DNA of 64,000 bases, taken from assembly GCF_004519335.1 (NCBI RefSeq), contig NZ_SOZD01000001.1, positions 620,001 through 684,000 of the forward strand. Direction: 5' to 3'. Below are positions 44,430 through 50,419 of this stretch, piece by piece. Source of the stretch: Jiella endophytica. GTDB taxonomy: Bacteria; Pseudomonadota; Alphaproteobacteria; Rhizobiales; Rhizobiaceae. The notes beneath the pieces are model-generated. The model made no database searches, was not told the origin of the DNA, and saw only the letters and a list, made by a program, of their open reading frames with translations. How positions within the stretch are numbered: the first letter of the stretch is position 1; every line of letters starts with the position of its first letter. The position numbers and the translations under genes were made by a program.

Positions 44430-45389
44430 ATGACATTGCGGAAACCCTATCCGCCGATCGAGCCCTACCGCATGGGGCGGCTCGAGGTCGGCGGCGGACA
44501 CGAACTCTATTTCGAGGAATGCGGCAATCCGGAAGGCATGCCCGTCGTCTTCCTGCATGGCGGGCCGGGCAGCGGCGCTTCGGCGCATCACCGGCGCCTC
44601 TTCGATCCGCAACGCTATCGCATCATCCTGTTCGACCAGCGCGGCTGCGGACGCTCGGTGCCGCTCGGATCTCTCGAGGCGAACACCACCTGGCACCTCG
44701 TCGACGATCTCGAAAGGCTGCGCCGCCACCTCAAGGTCGATCGCTGGCTGCTGTTTGGCGGCTCCTGGGGCGCGACGCTGGCGCTCGCCTATGCCGAAGC
44801 CCATGCCGGGCGGGCGCTCGGGCTGATCCTGCGCGGCATCTTCTCGGGCCGGCGCTCGGAGCTCGACTGGTTCTACGAATGGGGCGCCAACCGGCTGTTT
44901 CCCGACCAGTGGGAAAATCTCGTCGCGCGCATTCCGGCTAACGAGCAGGACGACCTCATCGCCGCCTATCGCCGCCGCCTGACCGATCCGGACCGGGCCG
45001 TGCGGGCGCAGGCGGCCAGCGCCTGGACCGCCTGGGAGGCGGCGACGGTGATGCTGCGGACATCGACCCCGCCGCTGCCCTCGACGGCCGCCACGCAGAC
45101 GGACGGCCAGATCGCCTTTGCCAGGATCGAGAACCACTTCTTCTTCCACGAACTCTGGCTGGAGGAGGGGCAGCTTCTCGCCGACATCGAGCGCCTCGCC
45201 GATACGCCGGGCATCATCGTTCAGGGCCGCTACGACGTCGTGACCCCAGCGATCACCTCATGGCAGATCGCCCAGGCCTGGCCGAAGGCCGACTACCGGC
45301 TGGTGGAAGGGGCAGGCCACGCCTTCGGCGAGCCGGCGATCCTCCACGAACTGCTGGAGGCGACCGACCGGTTCGTCACGGATCACTGA
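44430..45389 (+). CDS. pip: Prolyl aminopeptidase (first paralogue)
   Basis: Cytoplasmic S33 peptidase that removes N-terminal proline. HGGPG (43-47) forms the oxyanion hole, FDQRGCGRS follows, the nucleophile is Ser112 in GGSWGA, and the C-terminal GRYDVVTP (Asp) and EGAGHAFGE (His) complete the triad. ENHFFFHELWLEE belongs to the cap that selects proline. 319 residues. A second Pip lies at 49466-50419; this copy is the more diverged in the cap (TSTPPLPSTAATQTDG replaces the usual segment). It is upstream of the candidate RiPP locus on the opposite strand. Confidence 0.92.
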   Translation: MTLRKPYPPIEPYRMGRLEVGGGHELYFEECGNPEGMPVVFLHGGPGSGASAHHRRLFDPQRYRIILFDQRGCGRSVPLGSLEANTTWHLVDDLERLRRHLKVDRWLLFGGSWGATLALAYAEAHAGRALGLILRGIFSGRRSELDWFYEWGANRLFPDQWENLVARIPANEQDDLIAAYRRRLTDPDRAVRAQAASAWTAWEAATVMLRTSTPPLPSTAATQTDGQIAFARIENHFFFHELWLEEGQLLADIERLADTPGIIVQGRYDVVTPAITSWQIAQAWPKADYRLVEGAGHAFGEPAILHELLEATDRFVTDH

Positions 45390-45506: not shown

Positions 45507-45710
45507 TCAGCCGACCGAGAAGGTCATCAGCTGGCGCAGGCACTGGGTTTCCGAGGCCGCCTTCTTGCGCTTGCGCTTCGGCTTTTCGTGCTCCTCGATG
45601 AGCATCGCCTGGGGCACGCTTCGCACCTCGGCCTCGGGCGTCCACTGGCGCCCGACGATTTCCTGCATGAATTCGCGAGGCTGCGGCCTCGCCTGACGGG
45701 GCATGTCCAT
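45507..45710 (-). CDS. Small basic protein of unknown function, possible member of the peptide locus
   Basis: 67 residues: MDMPRQARPQPREFMQEIVGRQWTPEAEVRS, then a highly charged KPKRKRKKAASE stretch. It is on the same strand as, and downstream of, the Cys-rich peptide and the PatG-like protease (194-base gap). There is no strong ribosome binding site. It might instead start at the internal methionines 3 or 15. Function unknown; I list it mainly because order and strand place it with the candidate peptide system. Confidence 0.4.
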   Translation of the reverse strand: MDMPRQARPQPREFMQEIVGRQWTPEAEVRSVPQAMLIEEHEKPKRKRKKAASETQCLRQLMTFSVG

Positions 45711-45860
45711 GGCCTTTGCCTCGCTGGCGATCGTTCTCGGACGGACGTGCGCGGGGCGACGATCGCCGCCGCCGCGTCTCGACCGGTATCTGGTTCAGAC
45801 GGTCGAACTTTCGATCTGCATCGCATCGCCACCGGAAGGCCGGCGCCTCCCGGCGGTCGC

Positions 45861-45892
45861 CCGCCGCCCGCCCCGTCTGGAGAGGGCGGCGG
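45861..45892 (-). terminator. GC-rich stem-loop after the Cys-rich peptide gene
   Basis: CCGCCGCCC (45861-45869) and GGGCGGCGG (45884-45892) form a perfect 9-bp stem, 12 bases after the peptide stop on the minus strand. No T-run follows, so it may stabilise the short message or terminate weakly. Confidence 0.5.
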
Positions 45893-45904
45893 TGACCGGC
45901 TTCC

Positions 45905-46117
45905 TCAGAAGCAGTTCTTGCAGGTGCTCCAGGACGAGCCGAGGCAGCTGATGCAGCCGGCGTTCAGCGGGTTCGGAATGCACTGCGGCGCGCATTTGAC
46001 GAGCTTGGTGCCGCACTTCCACAGGCAGCTCCAGCTGAACGACTGGCTGACGGCACCCTGGCCGGGCGCGACGACGAGGCCGCGGGTCACGGGCGCGGCA
46101 ATGGTCGGTGAACGCAT
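45905..46117 (-). CDS. Eight-cysteine 70-residue peptide, candidate RiPP precursor
   Basis: Residues 1-25 form a cysteine-free leader-like part (MRSPTIAAPVTRGLVVAPGQG...). Residues 26-70 hold eight cysteines at 31, 35, 42, 46, 55, 58, 66 and 69, as paired CxxxC, CxxxC, CxxC and CxxC, interspersed with Ser, Thr, Trp, Gly and Pro, and ending NCF. The ribosome binding site AGAAGGAGA is close to ideal, one of the best in the window, so the gene is expressed protein rather than chance. A perfect palindrome lies directly upstream. It follows a PatG-like protease gene on the same strand. A precursor role is inference; a metal-binding or disulfide-rich peptide is the alternative. Confidence 0.72.
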   Translation of the reverse strand: MRSPTIAAPVTRGLVVAPGQGAVSQSFSWSCLWKCGTKLVKCAPQCIPNPLNAGCISCLGSSWSTCKNCF

Positions 46118-46518
46118 GGGACATCTCCTTCTGAAACGGTTTCAGCACTGGCCGACAATCGGCATGCAGACGCCTGCAGTCTCGACGGACGAACGCGCTG
46201 CAGACGCCAACGCTACTCTGCCCGCTGCCGCGGCAAGCGGACCGTCGCACGCCGGTCGAAGGCCAGAGCCATGCCGGCGGGAAGCCGCCGCACCGGCCGT
46301 GCGAAACTCTGTCGTTTCTGCTCGTCTCTCCTCCTTCGGTTGATCAAACCATCGATCCGGCATGACCTGCCGGGCCTGTGCGACAAACCGGCGGGAAGCC
46401 GCCGCGTCCGTCCGCCGACACGTCCCGATCTTCGACACCAAGCCAGCGGCCCGACGACAATCAGGAGGCGGAAGCCGGCGTCACGTCCGATGCCTCCAGA
46501 CGTGCGACCGGAACGCGG
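46118..46518. other. Region between the PatG-like protease and the peptide gene
   Basis: 401 bases, no supported gene; a 99-codon minus-strand frame at 46142-46441 lacks family or start signals. It holds the palindrome at 46131-46145 and an 18-bp direct repeat, CCGGCGGGAAGCCGCCGC, at 46274-46291 and 46388-46405, each of which can fold (CGGCGG/CCGCCG). Confidence 0.55.
46131..46145. promoter_or_regulatory. Palindrome CTGAAACGGTTTCAG before the peptide gene
   Basis: CTGAAAC and GTTTCAG are exact inverted repeats around one G, 14 bases before the peptide start and abutting its ribosome binding site. The one-base centre cannot form an RNA loop without opening, so a protein-bound operator is likelier. 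Confidence 0.55.
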
Positions 46519-48654
46519 TCAGGCGACCATCCCGACCGGTGCCAGCGCACTCAGCGGCACGCTCCAGCTGCGTCCGGCGCCGACGGTGACGGGCAGGACC
46601 TCGCTGACATCCACGGTGAAGCGATAGACGCGGGCGGCGCGGCGCTCGTTCTCGGCGTCGAACATCGTCACCTGCACGTCCCAGCAGTCGGAATCCGGCC
46701 GGCAGATCGGGCTCCTGGCGACGGTGATGCCGTAGAGCTCGAGGCCGCGGTTGAGCCCGTCGGCAAAGACGCTGGCGCCCTGATAGGCGTTGGTCGCCGC
46801 GAAGTTGATCGCCCGCTCCTCCGGGCTGATGCCGAGATTGCGCAGCTCGTCATAGACCCGGACGAGGAAGTTGAAGATCGGGCCGCTGTCCATGTCCTCG
46901 GCGCCGATCGCCGCCTTCGCCGCGGTGACCAGTTCCGGCGCGGTCCATTTCGCCAGGCCACGGGGATCCGGATAGATCACCGGCAGCACCTGGCCGTTCA
47001 TCAGCCGGGTCGAGCCGGCGACGTAGCCGGGCATGGCGACGCGCTGCAGGTCGCCGGTTTCGTCGAGGCTGGTCCGCATGGCGTCGAGCAGGTCGCGATA
47101 GACCTCCTGGGCGAAGGGCCCGGCCGGCGAGATCGCGTAGATGGGGATCTGCTCCTGCATCAGGATGAAGGTGATGCCGGTGGCGAAGGGAAGATCGTTC
47201 GACAGCATGTCGATGAGCGCCGTCGGCGTGTTCGCCGCGACCGGATCGCCGATGCGCTGGACGATGGCGTCGTAGCGGGCCTCGTTGCCGAAGTCGAACC
47301 AGACCGAGCCGAGGGCATAGACCTTCTGCGGCTCCTTCTGGCCGCCGCAGCCGCAGCCCTGCTGGGTGACGCCGGACTGGGCGATGGTGGCGATCCGTCC
47401 CATCGTAGCGCGCCGGCGGGCGAAACGACCAGGCCGCAGCTGCCGCGACTGCCTGGCCGACTGCCCGACCTCGTCGTCCTCGCCAACGTCGCCGCCATCG
47501 TCCACTTCGTCGAAGCCGTCGCCATCCGCCATCGTGTCGACGGCGCCGTTCTCCTCGTCTTCGGGCATCTCCTCCTCAAGGAGCTCTTCCTGCTGCTGCC
47601 TGGCCTTCTTCTTGCCGCCACAGCCGCAGCCGCAATCGGACTGGGCGACGCCGCCGACGCCGTTCGACCGGCCAATCGGCGGCATCCGCGCGGCGGACGG
47701 TCTGACGGACATGGGTTCCCTGATCATTGGCTTGCTCCCTGCTTGGTCATCCTCGGATTCCGCGAGAGAGAAAGCCCCCTCCGGCTCCGGCTCCAGAAAT
47801 TGACGCAGTCGTTCGATCGCCGCCGACAGGTCGAGGCGGCCTGCGAGGATCCGCGCGCATTCGCCATCGGCCTGCGGATCGCAGGGGCGGGCGGTCTCGA
47901 TCAGGATCTTGCGGATGTCGAGAGGCCCGATCTCGGCCCCCTCGCGCCTGGCCGCCGAGAGCATTCTGGCGGCGACGCCGCTGACCACGGCGGTGGCAAA
48001 ACTCGAGCCGCTCCTGGCGACGATCTCTCCACCAATGGTTGTGACGACTAGGCTGCCGCCCGGCGCCAGAATGCCGTTGAACGCATAGCTCGCGCCGAAA
48101 TTCGAACTGGCGAGCGGCCTGCCGTCGGCATCCATCGCCCCGACCGCCAGCACGCTGTGCACCGCCGCCGGAACATGCAGGCAGGCGCAGCCGTCGTTGC
48201 CAGCCGCGGCGACGACGAGGACGCCCTTCCGCTCGCAGAGCTTCAGCGCGTCTTCGAGATGGCGCGACGCCTCCGTCGTCGCCGAAAGCTGGCCGGCGCT
48301 GACATTCACGATCTGGGCGCCCCGTTCGACCGCCATGTAGATCGCCCGGGCGAGATCCGTCTGGGTCGCCCGCGGCGCCTCGTGAGACGGCCGCGAATCC
48401 GGAAAGAACACCGGCAGGACCAGCCCGGAACAGCCGCTTGCAAGGCCGTGTGCCTCGTCGAAGAGCAGGCTGCAGATTTCGGTGCCGTGCGGATCCGGCC
48501 CATGGGCCTCGGCGATCCGCATCGTCGTCTCGATTTCCAGCCGGGCCGCGGCCAGCGAAGCCAGCGAAAGGTCCGGCGTGCCGTCGACGATACCGATCTT
48601 GACGCCGCGATCGCCCGGTCCGAGGGTATCCAATTCAGGAAGATGACTGGGCAT
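46519..48654 (-). CDS. Subtilisin-like protease fused to a PatG-like domain (cyanobactin maturation protease family)
   Basis: 711 residues. Residues 15-285 are an S8 subtilase with triad Asp24 (GIVDG), His56 (DPHGTE) and Ser218 (SGSSFATA), and oxyanion Asn153 (AAGNDG). A linker carries CGCGCGG (341-347), a strongly acidic stretch (355-398) and a second CGCGG (434-438). Residues 446-711 (YALGSVWFDFGNEARYDAI..., LPFATGITFILMQEQIPIYAISPAGPFA, MPGYVAGSTRLMNGQVLPVIYP) resemble the region that in PatG and its relatives accompanies the macrocyclising or leader-cleaving protease. No signal peptide. The start at 48654 is chosen as the first giving the family N-terminus; the frame continues to 48768 through AT-rich likely promoter DNA. 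The downstream Cys-rich peptide is the obvious substrate candidate. Confidence 0.82.
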   Translation of the reverse strand: MPSHLPELDTLGPGDRGVKIGIVDGTPDLSLASLAAARLEIETTMRIAEAHGPDPHGTEICSLLFDEAHGLASGCSGLVLPVFFPDSRPSHEAPRATQTDLARAIYMAVERGAQIVNVSAGQLSATTEASRHLEDALKLCERKGVLVVAAAGNDGCACLHVPAAVHSVLAVGAMDADGRPLASSNFGASYAFNGILAPGGSLVVTTIGGEIVARSGSSFATAVVSGVAARMLSAARREGAEIGPLDIRKILIETARPCDPQADGECARILAGRLDLSAAIERLRQFLEPEPEGAFSLAESEDDQAGSKPMIREPMSVRPSAARMPPIGRSNGVGGVAQSDCGCGCGGKKKARQQQEELLEEEMPEDEENGAVDTMADGDGFDEVDDGGDVGEDDEVGQSARQSRQLRPGRFARRRATMGRIATIAQSGVTQQGCGCGGQKEPQKVYALGSVWFDFGNEARYDAIVQRIGDPVAANTPTALIDMLSNDLPFATGITFILMQEQIPIYAISPAGPFAQEVYRDLLDAMRTSLDETGDLQRVAMPGYVAGSTRLMNGQVLPVIYPDPRGLAKWTAPELVTAAKAAIGAEDMDSGPIFNFLVRVYDELRNLGISPEERAINFAATNAYQGASVFADGLNRGLELYGITVARSPICRPDSDCWDVQVTMFDAENERRAARVYRFTVDVSEVLPVTVGAGRSWSVPLSALAPVGMVA

Positions 48655-49369: not shown

Positions 49370-50419
<1,050 letters not shown>

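Follow-up and report, generated by a model that had tools for sequence, protein, structure and literature searches.

A 64,000-nucleotide stretch of the Jiella endophytica genome (the window; contig NZ_SOZD01000001.1, positions 620,001 to 684,000) harbours a cassette of three genes, all on the minus strand, in the order protease, 70-residue peptide and small basic protein. As judged from sequence, the cassette probably represents a minimal PatA-type precursor-processing operon, built on the protease logic of the cyanobactins and related to them, without their defining chemistry. The genes, their domains, the catalytic triad, the leader motif, the conservation of the cut site, the invariant cysteines and the genomic linkage were all observed directly. 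The same layout on one strand had been described in a reading made from the letters of the window alone (the sequence-only reading), and its coordinates agreed with those found here. The features of the cassette and the evidence for each are as follows.

46519..48654, minus strand: PatA-type leader protease, 711 amino acids (S8 domain, disordered linker, PatG_D, PatG_C); TIGR03895, PF00082, PF18047, PF18065, PatA 4h6v and Foldseek.
47803..48618, minus strand: subtilase domain, residues 13-284, triad D24 H56 S218; structure match, alignment and model.
47338..47784, minus strand: disordered linker, residues 291-439; predicted local distance difference test (pLDDT) below 50 over 291-439.
47614..47652, minus strand: first linker stretch resembling a cut site, GVAQS then DCGCGCGG, residues 335-347; sequence, with a putative function.
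47359..47373, minus strand: second linker stretch resembling a cut site, GVTQQ ahead of GCGCGG, residues 428-432; sequence, with a putative function.
47020..47325, minus strand: PatG_D domain; domain profile match.
46564..46878, minus strand: PatG_C domain; domain profile, PatG_D and PatG_C together matching the solved PatG domain of unknown function (DUF) 4uvq.
46142..46308, minus strand: decayed type A precursor; tblastn and blastn against the intact Jiella sonneratiae gene.
45905..46117, minus strand: type B precursor peptide, 70 amino acids; open reading frame (ORF), homologues, alignment and ratio of non-synonymous to synonymous substitution (dN/dS).
46082..46108, minus strand: leader motif P-x4-P-V-x-R, peptide residues 4-12; motif scan.
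46040..46057, minus strand: predicted cut site GAVSQS, residues 21-26, cut after S26; proposed from the PatA consensus (PMC10885120, excerpt).
45908..46039, minus strand: predicted 44-residue core with eight cysteines; alignment, two helices predicted with moderate confidence.
45507..45710, minus strand: gene 3, basic protein of 67 amino acids with the N-terminal motif MDMPRQARPQPR; homologues in L034-L037, L041 and L058.

The protease matched the TIGR03895 profile with 728.9 bits over residues 56-700 (curated cut-off 421.05) and the Pfam families PF00082, PF18047 and PF18065 (subtilase, PatG_D and PatG_C), and D24, H56 and S218 were unchanged in all 27 aligned proteases. These matches bear out the earlier description of a subtilase fused to a PatG-like domain with the triad intact, and answer the profile search proposed with it. 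The nearest solved structures by sequence were those of PatA/PagA (197-208 bits, PatA 4h6v 208), followed by the PatG DUF (4uvq, 190.5 bits) and the PatG macrocyclase (about 96 bits). An AlphaFold2 model presented two folded parts, residues 1-290 and 440-706, with the disordered linker 291-439 between them, and in Foldseek comparisons it gave target template-modelling scores (TMt) of 0.87-0.89 to PagA/PatA and 0.69-0.74 to the PatG macrocyclase. As PatA/PagA outranked the PatG macrocyclase both by sequence bits and by Foldseek, the enzyme is a PatA-type leader protease and not a PatG macrocyclase; the "PatG-like" label was right as to the PatA/PatG family, and has to be amended in that the enzyme is nearer to PatA. 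The window genome encoded one PatG_D protein, this same one nearer PatA, and no second, macrocyclase-type protease was found in it.

The relations of 31 proteases were estimated in a quick maximum-likelihood tree (midpoint-rooted, with SH-aLRT support only and long branches flagged). In it the proteases of cyanobactin clusters occupied one side of a branch with a support of 100 (six PatA-type, two PatG-like and one Roseobacter). The window protease fell within a set of 10 alphaproteobacterial proteases, also with a support of 100, and the cyanobacterial proteases accompanied by cysteine-rich peptides (L047, L048, L054) were separate. The root of this tree is not fixed, so a derivation of the cyanobactins from the present system is only a reading of a midpoint-rooted tree.

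The 70-residue peptide is a real gene. AGAAGGAG stands ahead of its ATG, and the four cysteine pairs (31/35, 42/46, 55/58 and 66/69) were at the positions that the sequence-only reading had given; all eight cysteines were unchanged in the 12 type B-like peptides aligned, which were chosen by hand. Whole-gene dN/dS values of 0.29, 0.34 and 0.49 against L034, L035 and L037 indicate moderate purifying selection. Structure prediction yielded two helices with moderate confidence. Between the protease and the peptide lies a decayed gene of a second precursor type, type A, with 71.8% nucleotide identity over 163 columns to the intact gene of Jiella sonneratiae. Its matches to that gene are distributed among three reading frames, and it has lost most of its cysteines; in a search of its own genome only a weak match was obtained (E 0.0135).

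In order to survey the neighbourhoods of homologous proteases, 30 loci were fetched by protease similarity alone (31 with the window), from Alphaproteobacteria, Cyanobacteria, Bacteroidota, Gemmatimonadota and one metagenome-assembled genome (MAG) of Nocardioidaceae. Small cysteine-rich ORFs followed the protease in many of the fetched loci, with several core types: type A (DCCGxGxCCxGxC...CVPNIGQC), type B, to which the window peptide belongs (CxxxC...CxxxC...CxxC...CxxC), type C (GCCVxVAGxC...C) and others. Most precursors shared the start M-[KR]-x-P-x-Q-[AS]-x-P-[VI]-x-R, in which I replaces Q in the window peptide. A loose form of this motif was present in 70 ORFs within 0-3.5 kb downstream of the protease and on its strand, in 27 of the 31 loci, at a density of 0.685 per kb of strand compared to 0.035 (33 ORFs) in the remaining sequence of the fetched loci, which served as background; the enrichment is about 20-fold. 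When only in-frame ATGs of small ORFs were scored for P4, P/A9 and R12, 50 of 548 were positive near the protease and 8 of 3403 elsewhere (29 loci). The 70 nearby ORFs included 13 cyanobactin-type precursors, 7 PatB-type proteins and 35 with at least four cysteines; about five look like chance matches, one of them among the 35 cysteine-rich ORFs (in L058). Several of the 33 ORFs elsewhere are real cyanobactin precursors at a greater distance.

Cysteine-rich motif peptides (at least four cysteines) followed the protease in 18 of the 31 loci, a count that leaves out the chance ORF of L058, a locus which does have a type A peptide. Recurrence of such peptides beside related proteases was what the sequence-only reading had staked its proposal on, and it was observed. 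Seven loci had only motif ORFs of cyanobactin clusters (precursors or PatB), and the motif peptides of L062 have zero and two cysteines. The system is rare and patchy, as indicated by the PatG_D counts: 3 of 61 related genomes, 7 of 397 genomes in a sample of the order and 2 of 385 in a sample of the class, the window genome being included each time. Strong peptide homologues (E<1e-20) were also present in 3 of the 61 relatives, the same three that carry PatG_D. Eight places with PatG_D were opened in the order sample; motif cysteine peptides were present in the window, L064, L065, L067 and L068, and variant starts with cysteine peptides in L069 and L070. L064 and L065 are not independent of L041 and L038, because they hold the same peptides.

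After the motif had been fixed, ten plasmid records with relatives of the protease were found and six of them were opened as a later test. Five of the six (Gloeocapsa, Nostoc, two Streptomyces and Gloeothece) had the strict motif downstream of the protease and on its strand, the Gloeothece ORF encoding PatB within a cyanobactin cluster. The sixth, from Acaryochloris, had a variant start with GGVQPS. The two Streptomyces plasmids presented runs of six and three annotated "hypothetical proteins" with motifs such as LHMPQQAPPVDR (L073 7580-9493 and L074 7755-8969), some of the motifs sitting 15-20 residues inside the annotated start. Stretches resembling the cut site read AVEPS and GVEAA, and GIEPS in one unannotated ORF. 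The cores were mostly cysteine-free and partly rich in tryptophan and proline, with two cysteines in three annotated proteins; the core thus varies behind a retained motif and site. The precursors of L072, L074 and L077 gave only sub-threshold matches to cyanobactin precursor models.

Excerpts of PMC10885120 place the cut made by PatA-like enzymes behind G(L/V)E(A/P)S. A pattern of this kind, [VILAMT]x[QPA]S, was present between residue 12 and the first cysteine in 37 of 42 peptides from 22 loci (hand-chosen, non-cyanobactin and nearly all motif-bearing), whereas with that stretch shuffled 2000 times the count averaged 7.3 and never exceeded 16. The five misses were in L045 (an artefact, with a cysteine inside the motif), L048, L054, L059 and L063. 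L068 and L062 hold an exact GVEPS, and the window peptide reads GAVSQS-FSWSC, a variant of the PatA site.

A related pattern was present in the protease itself, inside whose gene tblastn with type A precursors had given matches. Among 29 linkers surveyed (L058, L061 and L062 were left out), those of L051b and L057 had no CxC; in all 27 with CxC, a site of the form [VILAMTYD]x[QPA][SQ] stood at most 6 residues before the CxC cluster (mean 5.2, maximum 14 in 2000 rounds of shuffling). The window linker has two, GVAQS-DCGCGCGG and GVTQQ-GCGCGG. Three of the four CxC-bearing linkers of the later plasmid loci (L073, L075, L076) also had the site before CxC, as judged by eye. Protein Data Bank entry 3zxx bears the title "self-cleaved protease domain of PatA". 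Taken together, the linker sequences suggest that the protease probably processes itself. A wider, leader-like resemblance of the linker ahead of the first CxC cluster was considered and set aside as weak beyond the Aurantimonadaceae rows, again by eye, and only the likeness to the cut site was retained. The sequence-only reading had noted neither these linker stretches nor the decayed gene, the leader motif and the cut site of the peptide.

Homologues of gene 3 lie downstream of the protease in L034-L037, in L058 and, by BLAST, in L041. Gene 3 carries the N-terminal motif and no evident cut site, and had no match to Pfam or NCBIfam, including the PatB family TIGR04220. From these features it might be a PatB-like accessory or a further precursor, and is probably an accessory. 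A protein of L044 starting MKLPKQSPPVKR matched TIGR04220 with 123.5 bits. The motif was noted at the starts of PatB in L044 (10779-11012), L051 (9986-10204) and L076 (9388-9603), as at that of window gene 3. The common start hints at a docking motif of substrates and partner proteins. A Roseobacter MAG (L051 9986-15919) apparently holds a whole cyanobactin cluster outside the cyanobacteria, with PatB (71.4 bits), a heterocyclase (TIGR03604, 270.1 bits), a DUF5837 precursor (42.2 bits) and a second protease.

The sequence-only reading had seen no resemblance to cyanobactin precursors. This no longer holds: the leader P-x4-P-[VI]-x-R is common to cyanobactin leaders and PatB, and GAVSQS is a variant of the PatA site. 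P-x4-P-V-x-R starts the Calothrix precursor of L056 (TIGR03678 47.8 bits, DUF5837 62.2 bits), the precursor of the Roseobacter MAG and the PatB of L044 alike, and precursors with the same motif spacing were present in L040, L044, L053, L055, L056, L057 and L060; its use as a mark of the cyanobactin family is a reading of this analysis and not a published criterion. The window peptide itself did not match TIGR03678, DUF5837 or the sister precursor models, and neither it nor the other non-cyanobactin precursors tested had a Pfam or NCBIfam match above cut-off.

On the proposed mechanism, the 70-residue peptide would be a precursor with a leader (residues 1-26) and an eight-cysteine core (residues 27-70). 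The PatA-type protease would cut after GAVSQS (S26) and release a linear core of 44 residues, which would then probably fold as a cysteine-stabilised helical hairpin or bind metal. The protease would probably also cut its own linker at GVAQS/DCGCGCGG and GVTQQ/GCGCGG, which would free the catalytic domain from the PatG_D/PatG_C part, and gene 3 would probably act as an accessory protein in the place that PatB holds in cyanobactin clusters. The cleavage, self-cleavage, linear product, fold and role of gene 3 are thus steps that we infer. As to the separate chemistry that the sequence-only reading had considered possible, the evidence points to leader removal, and no known cysteine-modifying enzyme was found. 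DUF692/MNIO peptides, lanthipeptides and linear azoline peptides likewise have cysteine-rich cores or a leader/core logic; none of the hallmark enzymes of these three systems turned up in the window genome.

The product and its use admit two possible, tentative readings. In one, the peptide matured by the protease handles metal, with copper or zinc bound by its eight cysteines. The paired CxxxC/CxxC cysteines, invariant in the 12 peptides, and the density of CC and CxxxC in type A cores are consistent with this. No signal peptide was evident by eye in the protease, so cleavage would probably take place in the reducing cytosol, and copper raises patG expression and patellamide levels in an ascidian host (PMC13266932, excerpt). 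On the other side stand the Streptomyces loci, with mostly cysteine-free cores behind the same leader, and the lack of any ORF of at least 100 residues fit for a metal regulator or transporter that recurs across loci. In the other, held with similar reserve, a disulfide-rich peptide is secreted and acts as an antimicrobial or a signal, much as a bacteriocin does. The presence of several paralogous precursors per locus, with differing cores behind like leaders as in natural-product arrays, would fit, as would the predicted helical hairpin. However, no exporter or immunity gene recurs across loci, and the type B core, unlike hypervariable toxin cores, differs little from genus to genus.

It is rather unlikely that an unrecognised enzyme with its gene in trans, such as a radical S-adenosylmethionine/SPASM protein, acts on the core to give a modified ribosomally synthesised peptide. 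SPASM proteins were present in all five genomes checked; they are also common in general (8 of 14 control genomes), and those of the window genome are on other contigs. LanC-like proteins were absent from all five genomes, and DUF692 from the window genome and G005, being present in the other three. No recurring ORF family of at least 100 residues was present in more than seven loci, once shadow ORFs of the protease were set aside; the family that reaches seven was identified as PatC from one tested member (TIGR04447, 42.7 bits), and a further one is the cyanobactin heterocyclase. An improbable alternative is that the peptides regulate or inhibit the protease, with the site as a pseudo-substrate: an inhibitory tether would explain the same type of site in the linker, but PatA-type enzymes cut at such sites (PMC10885120, excerpt), and several different cores stand behind one type of leader.

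A true cyanobactin pathway with its heterocyclase and macrocyclase encoded elsewhere in the genome is very improbable, in spite of the same protease family and a similar leader and site: no YcaO was found in the window genome, G005 or G009, the window genome has a single PatG_D protein and no PatB that could be found (positive controls matched), and the peptide has no AYDG-type C-terminal signal. The window assembly is 97% complete, so a gene may have escaped these searches. The YcaO heterocyclase, which is optional in cyanobactins, was absent in 11 of the 18 genomes checked, these three among them. PatB (TIGR04220) was found in none of the three genomes (window, G005, G009), two genomes known to have PatB giving matches as controls, and PatC (TIGR04447) in none of the same three, in a search without a positive control matching. 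The absence of an adjacent cyclodehydratase, prenyltransferase and exporter, as first reported, was also seen here, none being among the neighbours of the cassette.

Several observations weigh against the interpretation of the cassette as a PatA-type precursor-processing operon. The site in the window peptide, GAVSQS, differs from the PatA consensus in the literature. One set of loci served both to derive the motif and to measure its enrichment, and only the six plasmid loci constitute a later test; the scan of these also gave four chance-like matches, three of them on the other strand. No strict-motif ORF was found near the protease in 4 of the 31 loci, namely L046, L050 (variant starts), L057 and L061 (cut contig). 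No motif peptide was found in L066, of the order sample, or within 3.3 kb in L071, one further place in the class sample. The type B leader of Jiella sonneratiae (L036 10524-10736) has an in-frame TGA at codon 3, and a later ATG would keep the cut site and core and lose the motif. The model of the peptide was weak, with a predicted template-modelling score (pTM) of 0.35 and no Foldseek match below E 3.9. The linker of the plasmid locus L074 has, by eye, a CxC without a stretch resembling the cut site before it. Nuclear magnetic resonance did not reveal binding of the PatG DUF to PatE' (PMC4259220, excerpt), which speaks against this DUF as the dock for the leader motif.

A further point concerns the residue before S in the peptide site, where Q tended to go with Q in the linker (8/2 versus 0/6, p=0.007), an agreement that rests on one change in the protease tree. 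As the tree needs one change only, the agreement counts as a single event, and covariation was rejected as independent evidence. L037 was scored as "A" in this test by a regular-expression artefact, the actual site being VAQS.

The likeness of the operon to patellamide-type cyanobactin clusters (PatA/PatE/PatB) lies in a PatA-type protease with its DUF, the leader motif, a similar cut site and a small motif protein downstream. The outcome resembles the leader-removal step of cyanobactin synthesis and is not that of a cyanobactin pathway: the window system, unlike these pathways, has no heterocyclase or PatB that could be found, no second protease of macrocyclase type and no C-terminal recognition sequence, its core is long and cysteine-rich, and its host is an alphaproteobacterium. 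Outside the cyanobacteria, excerpts of PMC8776678 note an orphan cyanobactin-type peptidase in Roseomonas oryzae, and those of PMC7369419 describe Streptomyces scabies SCAB_66631, adjoining four short peptides, with homology said to be only to the DUF. Both are cases of PatA/PatG homology outside cyanobacteria, that of S. scabies beside short peptides; neither a leader motif nor a cut site nor a cysteine-rich family is mentioned in the excerpts. No published description of the present protease and precursor family was found in the open-licence PubMed Central literature.

There is about an even chance that cyanobactins represent a specialised offshoot of a broader peptide-processing family, so far unrecognised, which ranges over Alphaproteobacteria, Cyanobacteria, Actinomycetota and Gemmatimonadota and, in variant forms, Bacteroidota. 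At its simplest the family would consist of a PatA-type protease with arrays of precursors whose cores are unrelated, and its signature would be an N-terminal P-x-Q-x-x-P-[VI]-x-R motif for docking, together with a cut site of the [VIL]-x-[QPA]-S type before the core. The motif would also dock PatB-type partners, and the protease would free itself from the DUF via substrate-like linker sites. The roles of the conserved PatA/PatG DUF and of PatB were left open in papers of 2014 and 2015 (PMC4259220 and PMC4663559, excerpts), and no later answer was found in the same literature. A system of only a protease, this domain, a precursor and one small motif protein makes both questions directly testable, and the motif offers a sequence mark by which peptide families not yet charted could be found.

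Some minor observations were made on the type B genes and the surroundings of the cassette. The type B precursor of a MAG (L058 9442-9648) has an in-frame TGA just past the first core cysteine. A recoded residue at the TGA codons of L036 and L058 was considered and had no support, the two cases being at different places. In Aurantimonas manganoxydans (L035 12206-12775), the distance of the type B gene and gene 3 from the protease exceeds that in A. coralicida by approximately 1.75 kb, and another type B-like gene is present near the protease. The promoter and terminator scan of the window yielded one promoter-like site, on the opposite strand, and one terminator-like site within the protease gene. 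Other neighbours in the window are one GFA-family protein and one endonuclease-family protein. The cassette is flanked by two prolyl aminopeptidase paralogues on the plus strand, at 44430-45389 and 49466-50419 (TIGR01249, 371 and 381 bits), and two homologues of this enzyme likewise flank the cassette in L034-L037.

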